Of a DNA stretch of 64,000 nt, positions 38,221 to 42,908 are shown one piece after another; the stretch's first letter is position 1, and each line of letters starts with the position of its first letter. The notes below the pieces were generated by a model that searched no databases, was not told the DNA's origin, and saw nothing but the letters and a program-made list of their open reading frames with translations. The DNA is from Bacteroidia bacterium (lineage in GTDB: Bacteria > Bacteroidota > Bacteroidia > Cytophagales > Cyclobacteriaceae): the NCBI GenBank assembly GCA_030432655.1, contig JAUILA010000009.1, positions 62,001 to 126,000 of the forward strand, written 5' to 3'. Both the position numbers and the translations under genes were made by a program.

Positions 38221-40965
38221 TCAGAGGGTTCGTTTGGTCTCCCTCTCTTCGTACGATTCTATGACGTCTCCTTCTTTGATATCGTTGAAATTCTTGATGC
38301 TGATACCACATTCATAGCCATTTTTGACTTCCTGAACATCATCCTTGAATCTTTTCAACTGACCCATTTCTCCGGAGTATACCACAATTCCATCCCGGAT
38401 AAGCCTGATCGGATTATTTTTCTTGATATATCCGTCAGTAACCATACATCCGGCCACTGTACCCACTTTAGAAATTTTGAATACATCACGTACTTCCACG
38501 TTCCCGACAATGACTTCTTCCACCTCCGGATCAAGCATTCCTTCCATGGCATCCTTCACATCATTGATGGCATCATAGATGACAGAATACAGTCGGATCT
38601 CGATTTCCTCATTCTCGGCAATCCGCTTGGCACTGGTCGACGGACGTACCTGGAAACCAACAATGACCGCATCGGAAGCAGACGCCAGCAAGACATCTGA
38701 TTCGGAAATCTGTCCCACACCTTTGTGGATGATGTTTACCTGAATCTCTTCCGTACTTAGTTTGAGCAGTGAATCTGACAACGCTTCCACGGAACCATCC
38801 ACATCACCTTTTACGATGACATTAAGCTCTTTGAACGAGCCGATCGCAAGACGACGACCGATCTCATCCAGGGTAATATGTTTCTTGGTACGTATGCTTT
38901 GTTCACGAATGATCTGTTCACGTTTGGAAGCAATTTCTCTTGCCTCCCGGTCAGATTCCATGACATTAAACTTATCCCCTGCCTGCGGGGCACCATCCAG
39001 ACCGAGCATCAGCACAGGTGTCGATGGTCCGGCCTCCTTCATCTGGTTACCTTTGTGATCAAACATGGCTTTTACACGACCATGAAAAGCGCCTGCCAGT
39101 ACTACATCACCTACCTTGAGGGTTCCATTTTGTACGAGCAGGGTAGCCACATATCCGCGTCCTTTATCCAGACTTGCCTCGATCACCGTACCATTGGCAC
39201 GTTTCTCCGCATTTGACTTAAGTTCCAGCAGCTCCGCTTCAAGCAATACCTTTTCCAGCAAATCATCCACACCCTGTCCGGTCTTCGCCGAAATCTCTGC
39301 ACACTGGTATTTACCTCCCCAGTCCTCAACCAGGATATTGATATTCGCCAGCGATTCTTTCACTTTGTCCGGATTCGCATTAGGCTTATCGATCTTGTTA
39401 ATCGCAATAATGATCGGAACTCCTGCCACCTGGGCGTGATTGATAGCCTCTTTTGTTTGAGGCATCACATCATCGTCGGCTGCAACCACGATAATTACAA
39501 TATCCGTTACTTTGGCGCCACGTGCACGCATCGCAGTAAACGCTTCGTGACCTGGTGTATCAAGGAATGCAATCTTTTCACCTTTTTCCGTCCTTACATC
39601 ATAAGCCCCGATGTGCTGGGTAATTCCACCTGCCTCACCGGCTGTTACTTTCGCTTCCCGGATATAATCCAGTAAGGATGTTTTACCGTGATCGACGTGA
39701 CCCATGATAGTAACAATAGGCGCTCTGTCGCTCAGATCTTCTTCGCTGTCCTGCTCAACTTCTATCTCAATCTCATCATCGGCGGAAGTGAATTCCACAT
39801 CGTATCCAAATTCGTCTGCAATGATCGTGATGGATTCAGCATCCAGGCGCTGGTTAATGGAAACGAACATACCCAGACCCATACAAGTCGAGATCACATC
39901 ATTAACAGAAACATTCATCAATGAGGCAAGGTCGTTGGCAGAAATAAATTCCGTCACTTTCAGTGTTTTGGATTCCTGCTGTTCCTGGAGCATTTGCTCT
40001 TCCTTGGCTTCAGCTGCTGCCGACCTCTTTTCCCTTCTGTATTTTGAACCGGAAGATTTCTTGTTACCACCGCTCAGTTTGGCGAGGGTTGCTTTAATCT
40101 GATCCTGGATTTCCTTATCTGATGGTTCTTCCTTATCCGGACGACCTCTTCTTCGGCTATCACGGTCCGCCTTGGAAATTCTTTTTCTGGGACGCTTTTT
40201 CTTCTTACGTTCTTTCTGGTCATCCGAAGATGCAACAGGCTTGGATTTCTTATCCCTTTTATCCGGAAGTTCAATCTTACCAACTACTTTCAGGCCCTTC
40301 AATTTATCTGCCCGGGCTGATATCACTTCCTTGTCTTCTGCAGGCGCTGCCTTCTCCTCTTTTGGTTCTTCTTTCTCTTCTTTCTTTTCCGCTTTTACCT
40401 CTTCTGCCGGCTTTTCTTCTTTCTTCTCTGCTTTCGGCTCTTCCTTTTTCTCTTCTTTTTCTTCCTTCTTCGGCGTTTCTTCTTTCTTTTCCTGCTTCTT
40501 ACCCTTGTCGAGATCGATCTTGCCTAATACCTTTAGGCCAACTTTTGTGGTATCGGCTTTTTCAGGTTTTTCTTCTTTTTTCTCCTCTTCTTTCTTTTCC
40601 TCCGCTTTGGGAGCCTCCTCTTTTTTGGGCTCTTCTTTCTTCGGTTCGCTTTGGCTCTTGGCAGAAAGATTCTTGATCAGCACACTTTCTTCATCTTCCT
40701 TATTATCAGATGTATCCGTCTCACTGTCAATTACCACATGTTCTGAGTGCTTGGTCCCGATGGTCAGACCAGAGGCTTCTTCTTTTTCAGAAGCTGAAGC
40801 TGCAAACTCTTTGGAAAGCATAGCATATTGCTCTCCGGTAATCTTGGAGTTTGGGCTCGAGTCGACATCAAAGCCTTTGTCCGTAAGGAAATCCAGAATG
40901 GTATTCCTCCCGACATTCAGCTTTCTCGCGACCTGACTAAGCCTCATGGTTTTTTCATCTGCCAT
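38221..40965 (-). CDS. infB: Translation initiation factor IF-2
   Basis: A 914-residue GTPase that brings initiator tRNA to the 30S subunit. Order: IF2_N-like domain (about 5-50), a long Lys/Glu linker (about 85-230) containing two GLKV-GKI repeats, a basic segment (250-315), a second N-terminal domain (330-395), and the GTPase with G1 GHVDHGKT (422-429), DTPGH (469-473) and NKID (523-526). Domains II-IV to the end follow. ATG 40965 is chosen over an in-frame TTG two codons earlier. The order rimP-nusA-infB is conserved in bacteria. Confidence 0.98.
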
Positions 40966-41007
40966 ACTCAAATATCCCTTTTTTATTAATTAGTAAAAAA
41001 TAAAATT

Positions 41008-42249
41008 CTATTCGAACTCCTGCTTGAGGATCTTCATAACGTCATCAATCGTCTCTTCTTCCAGGTCTGTCCGCCGCTCAAGATCTTCCTTGGTCAACTG
41101 AAGAACACTCTTTGCGGTATCCAATCCGATACGCTTAAGCTCATCAATTACCCAATCTTCAATTTCATCTCCGAACTCGTCCAGATCGACGTCCTCCTCT
41201 TCAAATTCACCCAATTCACGGAACACATCAATCTCAAGACCCACCAGCTTACTGGCCAGCTTAATGTTCTGTCCGCCTTTCCCGATAGCCAGGGAAACCT
41301 GGTCAGGTTTAAGGAATACAGAAACCCTGCCTTCGTCCTCCAGGATCTTAATACTGCTGATCTTCGCCGGGCTGAGCGCGCGGGTAATATAGAGATCCAT
41401 ATTCTCCGTATAATTGATCACATCAATATTTTCATTCTGAAGTTCACGAACGATACTGTGAATCCTCGATCCTTTCATACCCACACAGGCACCAACCGGA
41501 TCGATCCGGTCATCATACGATTCAACCGCCACTTTGGCTCGCTCTCCCGGCTCCCGTACCACTCGCTTGATAGTAATAAGTCCGTCATACACCTCCGGAA
41601 CTTCGCTCTCAAACAAACGCTCAAGAAATACAGGGCTCGTACGCGAGAGAATGATCTTCGGATTTCCATTAATCATTTCTACCCGGTCAACAATCGCCCG
41701 AACCTGATCTCCTTTGCGGAAGCGGTCTTTAGGGATCTGCTCATTTCGCGGTATTGAAATTTCATTTCCTTCAGCATCGATCAGCAACACTTCCCGGCTC
41801 AGGATCTGGTAAACTTCACCACTGATGATCTCTCCCACCAGGTCTTTGTATTTCTGGAATAAAATGTCCTTCTCGAGGTCCTTCACCTTCTGTATAAGCG
41901 TCTGACGGGCAGTCATAACAGCCCGCCGGCCAAAATCTTCCAGTGTGATCTCTTCTGCTACTTCTTCACCTATTTCGAAATCAGGCTCAATCTTCCGCGC
42001 TTCGGTCAGACTAATTTTGTCATGATCCCAAATATCCTCAGAGTTATCGTCCACAATCTCTCTGAACCGCCATATCTCAAGGTCACCCTTGTCAGCGTTA
42101 ATGATAATATCAAAATTATCATCGGTCTCGAACTTCTTACGAATCATGGTTCGGAATACATCTTCCAGTATCCTGATCATCGTAGGACGGTCGATATTCT
42201 TTTGCTTCGCAAAATCCGCAAACGACTCAATTAAAACTGAAGCATCCAT
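41008..42249 (-). CDS. nusA: Transcription termination/antitermination factor NusA
   Basis: A 413-residue RNA-polymerase-binding protein. It has the N-terminal domain (MDASVLIESFADFAKQKNIDRPTM), an S1 domain (about 130-205) and KH1/KH2 RNA-binding domains (DPVGACVGMKGSRIHSIVREL; VSLAIGKGGQNIKLASKLVG). The C-terminal acidic region contains one helix-hairpin domain. ATG 42249 is chosen over GTG 42252. It lies 8 nt after rimP and 42 nt before infB. NusA promotes pausing at hairpins, and this operon has a terminator in its own leader, suggesting feedback. Confidence 0.97.
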   Translation of the reverse strand: MDASVLIESFADFAKQKNIDRPTMIRILEDVFRTMIRKKFETDDNFDIIINADKGDLEIWRFREIVDDNSEDIWDHDKISLTEARKIEPDFEIGEEVAEEITLEDFGRRAVMTARQTLIQKVKDLEKDILFQKYKDLVGEIISGEVYQILSREVLLIDAEGNEISIPRNEQIPKDRFRKGDQVRAIVDRVEMINGNPKIILSRTSPVFLERLFESEVPEVYDGLITIKRVVREPGERAKVAVESYDDRIDPVGACVGMKGSRIHSIVRELQNENIDVINYTENMDLYITRALSPAKISSIKILEDEGRVSVFLKPDQVSLAIGKGGQNIKLASKLVGLEIDVFRELGEFEEEDVDLDEFGDEIEDWVIDELKRIGLDTAKSVLQLTKEDLERRTDLEEETIDDVMKILKQEFE

Positions 42250-42257
42250 CACACTGT

Positions 42258-42725
42258 TTATTTAAATGAAACCTGTACTATTGATTTATTAATTTGGGAT
42301 AGTGGAATTTCCACTTCCTCTTCATTCGCTTTCTTTCCTTTTCCAACTTTAGCCATCAGCACGATCCTGTCTTCATCGGCTTCTTTCAATACCCCCTTCA
42401 CATCTTTCCCTTCTGTCAGGTTAACCCGCAGTGTTCTTCCGATATTCTTCCTGTACTGCCGCACTGTCTCCAGCGGATGACTGATACCCGGTGTGGATAC
42501 CTCCAGGGTATATGCCCCGTCAAACAAATCAAGCTCCTCAATCTGCTCTCCCAATGCCCGGCTCAGCGCTGCGCAATCATCAATGCTCACACCTTCGTCC
42601 CCATCCAGGAGAACCAGCACTTTCTGGCCACTGCGGCCTGCACTTACCTTCACATCTACCAAAAAATGCGCGTCACTTTCCAGTAAGGATTCCGCTATTT
42701 CGCGTATTTTTTGTTGATCTGCCAT
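42258..42725 (-). CDS. rimP: Ribosome maturation factor RimP
   Basis: A 155-residue protein for 30S subunit maturation, with the usual two domains: N-terminal alpha/beta part with VLLDGDEGVSIDDCAALSRALGEQIEE, LEVSTPGISHPL, and a C-terminal SH3-like barrel. It is the first gene of the rimP-nusA-infB operon. The leader between promoter and start is about 75 nt and contains a terminator-type hairpin. Confidence 0.96.
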   Translation of the reverse strand: MADQQKIREIAESLLESDAHFLVDVKVSAGRSGQKVLVLLDGDEGVSIDDCAALSRALGEQIEELDLFDGAYTLEVSTPGISHPLETVRQYRKNIGRTLRVNLTEGKDVKGVLKEADEDRIVLMAKVGKGKKANEEEVEIPLSQINKSIVQVSFK

Positions 42726-42750
42726 CTCGCTACCTTTGAAAAAGAAATAT

Positions 42751-42776
42751 AAAAAGAGGGGACTGGTAGTCCCCTC
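42751..42776 (-). terminator. Terminator hairpin inside the rimP leader (attenuator)
   Basis: On the minus strand a perfect 9-bp stem (42768-42776 with 42756-42764) closes a 3-nt loop and is followed by five Ts and an AT-rich run. It lies between the rimP promoter (42800-42831) and the rimP ATG at 42725, about 25 nt upstream of that ATG. The gene on the other side is divergent, so this cannot end an upstream minus-strand gene. It is a premature terminator of the operon itself. Confidence 0.75.
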
Positions 42777-42799
42777 AAACTATTTTACTATTTTCGATG

Positions 42800-42831
42800 C
42801 AAATCTACGTCAATTTTGTTTGCTTTACAAA
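42800..42831 (-). promoter_or_regulatory. Bacteroidota-type promoter of rimP-nusA-infB
   Basis: On the minus strand: TTTG (42828-42831), 20-nt spacer, TAGATTTG (42800-42807). Both boxes match the Bacteroidota consensus exactly. The start site should fall near 42795, giving a leader of about 70 nt. Confidence 0.82.
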
Positions 42832-42908
42832 CACGAACGTATAATTAACACCTCCAAACTATTTTTGATAAGTCTTCGTTTGAGCGTGTAATAACCTTTT
42901 TTCCGAAC

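Follow-up and report, generated by a model that had tools for sequence, protein, structure and literature searches.

NusA and IF-2 are pace-setters of transcription and translation, and the Bacteroidia are common in guts, soils and seas. In the stretch of Bacteroidia DNA analyzed here (64,000 nucleotides, referred to below as the window), the rimP-nusA-infB operon is preceded by a terminator-type hairpin located between its promoter and its first gene. This raises the question of what a terminator would do at the head of such an operon, and of what would set the extent of its action.

Promoter and hairpin in the rimP leader

The genes of the operon were identified on the minus strand as rimP (42258..42725; NF002531, 124.9 bits, just above the cut-off of 123), nusA (41008..42252; TIGR01953, 385.1 bits, cut-off 253.4) and infB, encoding IF-2 (38221..40971; TIGR00487, 829.1 bits, cut-off 424.4). 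Read on the same strand, the leader consists of a -33 element TTTG (42828..42831), 20 nt, the -7 box TAGATTTG (42800..42807), 23 nt, the hairpin GAGGGGACTACCAGTCCCCTC (42756..42776), the U-rich tail TTTTTATATT (42746..42755) and the rimP ATG at 42725, which lies 30 nt downstream of the stem. The arms of the hairpin, GAGGGGAC and GTCCCCTC, form nine pairs, none of them mismatched and six of them G-C, around a loop of three, and the tail that follows was identical in the three near relatives that were aligned. Folding of the leader gave -21.9 kcal/mol (z = -3.35), and the hairpin formed the core of this fold. A preliminary description of this locus had pointed out the near-perfect promoter, the perfect 9-bp stem with its T-run and the divergent orientation of the neighboring gene, and these observations were borne out: the gene upstream of the leader extends from 42909 onward on the plus strand.

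The -7 box is placed at -12 to -5 relative to the transcription start (PMC9723704). If TAGATTTG is taken as -12 to -5, the predicted start is at about 42795, which leaves about 19 nt of RNA (42777..42795) ahead of the stem and has the stem beginning at about +20.

On the minus strand, the -33 element is overlapped by GTTTG-TAAAG-CAAAC (42818-42832), an inverted repeat without mismatches. The letters at this repeat, TTTGTAAAGCAAA, were the same in the window and in the three near relatives aligned, but of 86 family leaders only 7 had a TTTG-gap-CAAA pattern. The repeat may be an operator of a close group.

Conservation of the hairpin in related leaders

Hairpins with at least 8 bp, at least six G-C pairs and at least six T in eight tail positions were found three times in the 64 kb window, and 0, 0, 0, 0, 0, 1, 0 and 0 times in eight dinucleotide shuffles of it. 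Comparison of related leaders for covarying stems, which the preliminary description had put forward as a check, was carried out in two samples. RimP was detected in 144 of the 148 family genomes, and the leaders of the best 90 of these 144 matches were compared. The hairpin was present in 89 of them, and the remaining leader was cut by a contig end (L090). All six of the further, low-ranked family leaders that were inspected (L118, L121 and L123-L126) also contained it, and a match to model R1 was located just upstream of rimP in at least 42 of the other 54 family genomes (lists compared by eye, with G008, G042, G052, G097, G099 and G124 left out). The core GGGGAC/GTCCCC was exact in at least 72 of the 89 leaders, which is a lower bound because some leaders were mis-anchored at runs of G, and all eight pairs were found in 69 of the 89. 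The T-rich tail adjoining the stem was kept in most aligned leaders. In the source genome, R1 scored 39.6 bits at the rimP leader and at most 22.1 bits elsewhere among the 150 of 1379 candidates scored.

The second sample was drawn by scanning with an alignment of NusA, from which the best 80 of 584 relatives were taken, a ranking that favors relatives of the window; the nearest named relative was Fulvivirga marina, with 93% NusA identity. Three of the 80 (L192, L219 and L221) had no rimP on the examined stretch, leaving 77 leaders, with titles that included Cytophagales, Pedobacter, Mucilaginibacter, Chitinophagaceae, Saprospiraceae, Flavobacteriales, Bacteroidales, Odoribacter and Alistipes. 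These leaders were chosen by NusA similarity and not by the hairpin, and the hairpin was found in 76 of the 77, with the core exact in 53 of the 76. Only L199 had no hairpin by the criterion used.

Under a positional criterion (at least five pairs, at least four of them G-C, at least four T of eight, 10-70 nt before the gene), hairpins were detected at 87 of the 89 rimP genes of the family and at 75 of the 77 in the named set, compared with 8 of the 128 controls overall and 1 of the 60 controls that, like rimP here, have a divergent neighbor. At the strictest setting (at least eight pairs, at least six G-C, at least five T), the counts were 82 of 89, 40 of 77, 3 of 128 and 0 of 60, respectively. 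These sequence comparisons indicate that the conservation of the leader hairpin is not due to chance. Stems of similar letters do occur at gene ends, as they would if the hairpin were the 3' terminator of another gene, but here the gene upstream points the other way and is separated from the hairpin by a promoter of fixed spacing, and the leaders are conserved; position and conservation exclude both this origin and a chance hairpin.

Spacing between promoter and hairpin

TAnnTTTG was the form of the -7 box in most leaders. When 86 family leaders were aligned on this motif, T occupied the position 23 nt ahead of the box 85 times and the position 22 nt ahead of it 84 times, so that the spacing between the -33 and -7 elements is fixed and the TT of the -33 element nearly invariant. 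Within 8-45 nt 5' of the GGG of the stem, TAnnTTTG was present in 88 of the 89 leaders of the family and in 67 of the 76 named ones, as against 3.5% of mononucleotide-shuffled sequences, with a median distance from box to GGG of 25 nt and 26 nt, respectively. The RNA ahead of the stem had a median length of about 18 nt in the 86 family leaders, and an ATG was present there in 17 of the 86. With only 18-19 nt of RNA before the stem, an aptamer, an antiterminator or a leader peptide would hardly fit, and a factor acting on the polymerase or on the hairpin would therefore be the simplest regulator.

The preliminary description had proposed attenuation in this leader and, along with it, a rival structure in which CTACC on the loop side of the hairpin would pair with GGTAG near the start codon. 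The conserved terminator-type hairpin stood, and the rival structure did not. Both 5-nt stretches exist in the window, where their complementarity alone gave p = 0.06 against shuffles, but the forced fold reached -6.4 kcal/mol versus -23.2 kcal/mol, loop sequences varied among leaders, and the pairing was missing in the three near relatives aligned. Complementarity between the loop and the downstream leader averaged 3.31 nt versus 3.28 nt in shuffles, with four of the 87 leaders having at least 5 nt, so there was no excess over shuffles and such a switch is scarcely credible. Folding and shuffling detected no competing fold for the stem in the window leader, and across 86 leaders the longest helix between a stem arm and the downstream leader had a median of 4 nt and a maximum of 8 nt, with G-U pairs allowed.

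Maintenance of base pairing

In the family alignment 99.9% of the cells in the stem were paired, compared with 44-76% in slid controls. Pairs 3, 4, 5 and 8 of the eight were invariant in 85 distinct family rows, and two-sided changes occupied only five cells of this alignment; when helices were counted leader by leader in the family set, two-sided changes were seen at pair 1 (four) and pair 7 (four). In the named leaders, two-sided changes were seen at pair 1 (15), pair 2 (1), pair 5 (1), pair 6 (3), pair 7 (8) and pair 8 (1), that is, at six of the eight pairs, those at pairs 2, 5 and 8 coming from one leader each. The swaps in this wider set included replacement of the G-C foot pair by A-U or U-A, of the seventh pair, A-U, by G-C or U-A, and of the sixth, G-C, by A-U. 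These counts are biased toward pairing, as the hairpins were found as helices; they omit leaders mis-anchored at runs of G (L017, L062, L064, L074, L085 and L253), leaders with shifted or shorter stems (L230 and L249), and pair 8 of L198 and L233, where the loop would be too short. A MAFFT alignment of the named leaders (A3), in which stretches of L186, L191, L230, L249 and L253 had been trimmed by hand, was kept out of the counts because its 5' arm had slipped. Within these limits, the aligned sequences indicate that diverged stems still pair.

Distribution in the class and the phylum

With E ≤ 0.001 as the limit, R1 matched 72 of the 119 genomes at the level of the class. Twenty-seven class loci beyond the family were examined and 23 of these were at rimP; one of the others (L130) ended at a contig edge and three (L138, L142 and L151) were elsewhere. 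Class genomes that R1 had missed provide the strongest test of whether pairing is kept; 30 of them were taken up, 28 had NusA and 25 of these had rimP. A hairpin was detected in 21 of the 25 leaders, and in 20 of the 25 it had a T-rich tail and was located 19-44 nt upstream of rimP; in L317 the hairpin was present with the T run inside an extended stem. Many of these stems differed in sequence, for example GAGGCACGC/GCGTGCCTC in L319 and L320 and GAAGGGAACG/CGTTCCCTTC in L322. Four of the 25 leaders (L327, L333, L334 and L336) fell below the hairpin criterion, and inspection by eye of L333 and L334 revealed an AAGGC/GCCTT stem with a longer loop, followed by a T run.

In the phylum sample, R1 matched 32 of 148 genomes. 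Eleven of these lie outside the class; nine of their loci were examined, and in no case was there a RimP match near the R1 match. A survey of other classes by way of NusA (30 genomes, 29 of them of other classes) yielded 27 rimP leaders outside the class. The GGGGAC core was in none of the 27; 19 of them, read by eye from the list, had a different terminator-like hairpin together with a T run. In family f65 this was a GTGGGG/CCCCAC stem 55-63 nt upstream of rimP, and L294 and L296 had GGGC-type stems, as in a published motif discussed below. From these sequences, the habit of placing a terminator in this leader is one that extends beyond the Bacteroidia stem sequence.

Several leaders had features of their own. 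The leaders L296-L306, which belong to other classes of the phylum, had a hairpin of another kind 55-101 nt before rimP, with a T run after it; the stem was GTGGGG/CCCCAC in 7 of these 11. In family f64 (L291, L292 and L293) the polarity was opposite: the 5' arm carried CGCCCC or a similar sequence, and ATTTTT came after the hairpin. The Bacteroidia leaders L199 and L327, without a hairpin by the criterion, are natural contrasts for the attenuation model.

A protein such as NusA or RimP might read the stem sequence itself, with GGGGAC/GTCCCC as its binding site, and control might then extend to translation as well as termination. The four invariant pairs in the family fit this idea, and Naville and Gautheret argued for protein recognition of their own motif (PMC2965389), but quite different stems occupy the same place in other Bacteroidia (L319, L320 and L322) and other classes have stems such as GTGGGG/CCCCAC. 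This indicates that the letters are not essential everywhere, and we regard such a stem-reading protein as distinctly unlikely.

Matches elsewhere and a possible constant role of the hairpin

A check for a wider regulon covered 14 R1 matches not at rimP (L107-L117 of the family, and L138, L142 and L151), which are part of those found. At least nine of the 14 were at or near the 3' end of a gene, like ordinary terminators. The only two that shared a gene context were L108 (about 737-773) and L109 (about 685-721), in which an R1-like terminator lies between the same two co-directional genes and is probably an ordinary intergenic terminator; no second leader target was therefore seen among the 14. 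In one genome (G036:C1:344005-344458) the rimP frame was split into two overlapping pieces and contained one TGA, due either to a frameshift or to an assembly error.

Since R1 detects terminators with similar stems at other loci as well, the sequence constraint may partly be that of a good terminator. Compared with 45 ordinary terminators, family tails had T less often at position 4 (47% versus 87%) and position 5 (34% versus 76%). The length of the initial T-run did not differ significantly (p = 0.13) and many tails outside the family start with at least five T; a weaker U tract was not supported as a general feature. The stem was no weaker than that of ordinary terminators (6.0 versus 5.4 G-C pairs).

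Such a hairpin might act as a constant throttle or stabilizer, terminating or pausing at a fixed rate or protecting the 5' end of the mRNA, with no feedback. A stem near the 5' end and the lack of a visible second structure or sensor fit this reading, but a stabilizer would not need the T-rich tail that adjoins the stem in most aligned leaders, R1 scores the rimP site far above others in the source genome, and regulation has precedent at this operon in other phyla. We consider a constant element unlikely.

Comparison with known rimP and nusA leaders

In the ranking by Naville and Gautheret (2010) of genes predicted to have attenuators, rimP came first; no antiterminator was seen in their rimP-leader, and NusA was thought the best candidate for its regulator (PMC2965389). 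The leader described here is like theirs in having a terminator-type hairpin ahead of rimP-nusA-infB, with a G-rich 5' arm containing GGG, a C-rich 3' arm containing CCC and a T stretch, at a distance from the gene (30 nt in the window) within their range of 4-130 nt and with no visible antiterminator. It differs in its core, which is GGGGAC/GTCCCC rather than GGGc/gCCC, and in that about 20 nt separate the predicted start of transcription from the window hairpin. The c/g directly inside GGG/CCC in the published motif, given there in lower case, is not matched: in the Bacteroidia stem an A-U seventh pair lies inside GGG/CCC and the C-G pair comes one step further in. This suggests a variant that works like the rimP-leader and not a plain member. 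Escherichia coli K-12 has GGGCTTTAGGCCC and seven T about 24 nt upstream of rimP. No word starting with "bacteroid" was found in the accessible main text of PMC2965389.

The Rfam family RF01770 (rimP) covers the same genomic place, but the window had no match at its gathering threshold (47 bits), and in 201 bases of the window leader no match was obtained even at E ≤ 10. The 39 weak matches in the source genome were all away from the window leader, and among 14 control genomes one had an RF01770 match above the cut-off. Near-matches to other Rfam families, such as STnc290 (27.2 bits, gathering threshold 60), were below cut-off and terminator-like, and were rejected.

In Bacillus subtilis, NusA-stimulated termination in the leader limits transcription of nusA itself (reviewed in PMC12288461, citing Mondal et al. 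2016). The resemblance is in a terminator-type hairpin between the operon promoter and the first gene; the differences are that B. subtilis belongs to another phylum and that dependence on NusA is putative here. Closer to the window, a structured element without an Rfam match has been described 5' of rimP in Flavobacterium psychrophilum and other genera of Flavobacteriaceae (PMC9723704), and it is likely the Bacteroidia leader hairpin. The accessible part of the Bacteroides thetaiotaomicron map (PMC7366714) makes no mention of the operon. The logic of attenuation was already published; the Bacteroidia consensus and anatomy are new within the literature searched.

A proposed model for attenuation of rimP-nusA-infB

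Based on the leader sequences and on analogy with other phyla, we consider it likely (a probability of roughly 0.6) that an early intrinsic terminator attenuates rimP-nusA-infB, with NusA most likely raising termination. Polymerase would start at about 42795 and make the hairpin at about +20 to +40. At the U-rich tail it would either release an RNA of about 47 nt or read on into the operon. As a product of the operon, NusA would raise termination, such that high NusA would lower transcription of rimP, nusA and infB. Both termination at the hairpin and the setting of its extent by NusA are what we infer from these features, and attenuation with NusA feedback has published precedents in other phyla.

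The reasons for naming NusA as the likely setter are its origin in the operon itself, its ability to stimulate hairpin-dependent termination and its autoregulation by leader termination in B. subtilis (PMC12288461). In published work, hairpins and U tracts that are suboptimal have been connected with NusA, and distal interruptions of the U tract with NusG (PMC8060035). Given the strong stem here and the share of NusG in termination, NusG is also a possible setter. A Bacteroidia-wide brake that involves no RNA switch, and in which NusA or RimP at the exit channel reads the letters of the stem, is unlikely; if true, it would mean class-wide feedback on transcription and translation factors inside the first 50 nt.

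If attenuation by an early terminator is true, the same operon would be similarly braked in another deep bacterial branch, with a stem sequence of its own. The leader, with less than 50 nt of RNA and no visible aptamer, would be a compact substrate for direct tests of NusA in Bacteroidota, and the Bacteroidia consensus could yield an annotation model.
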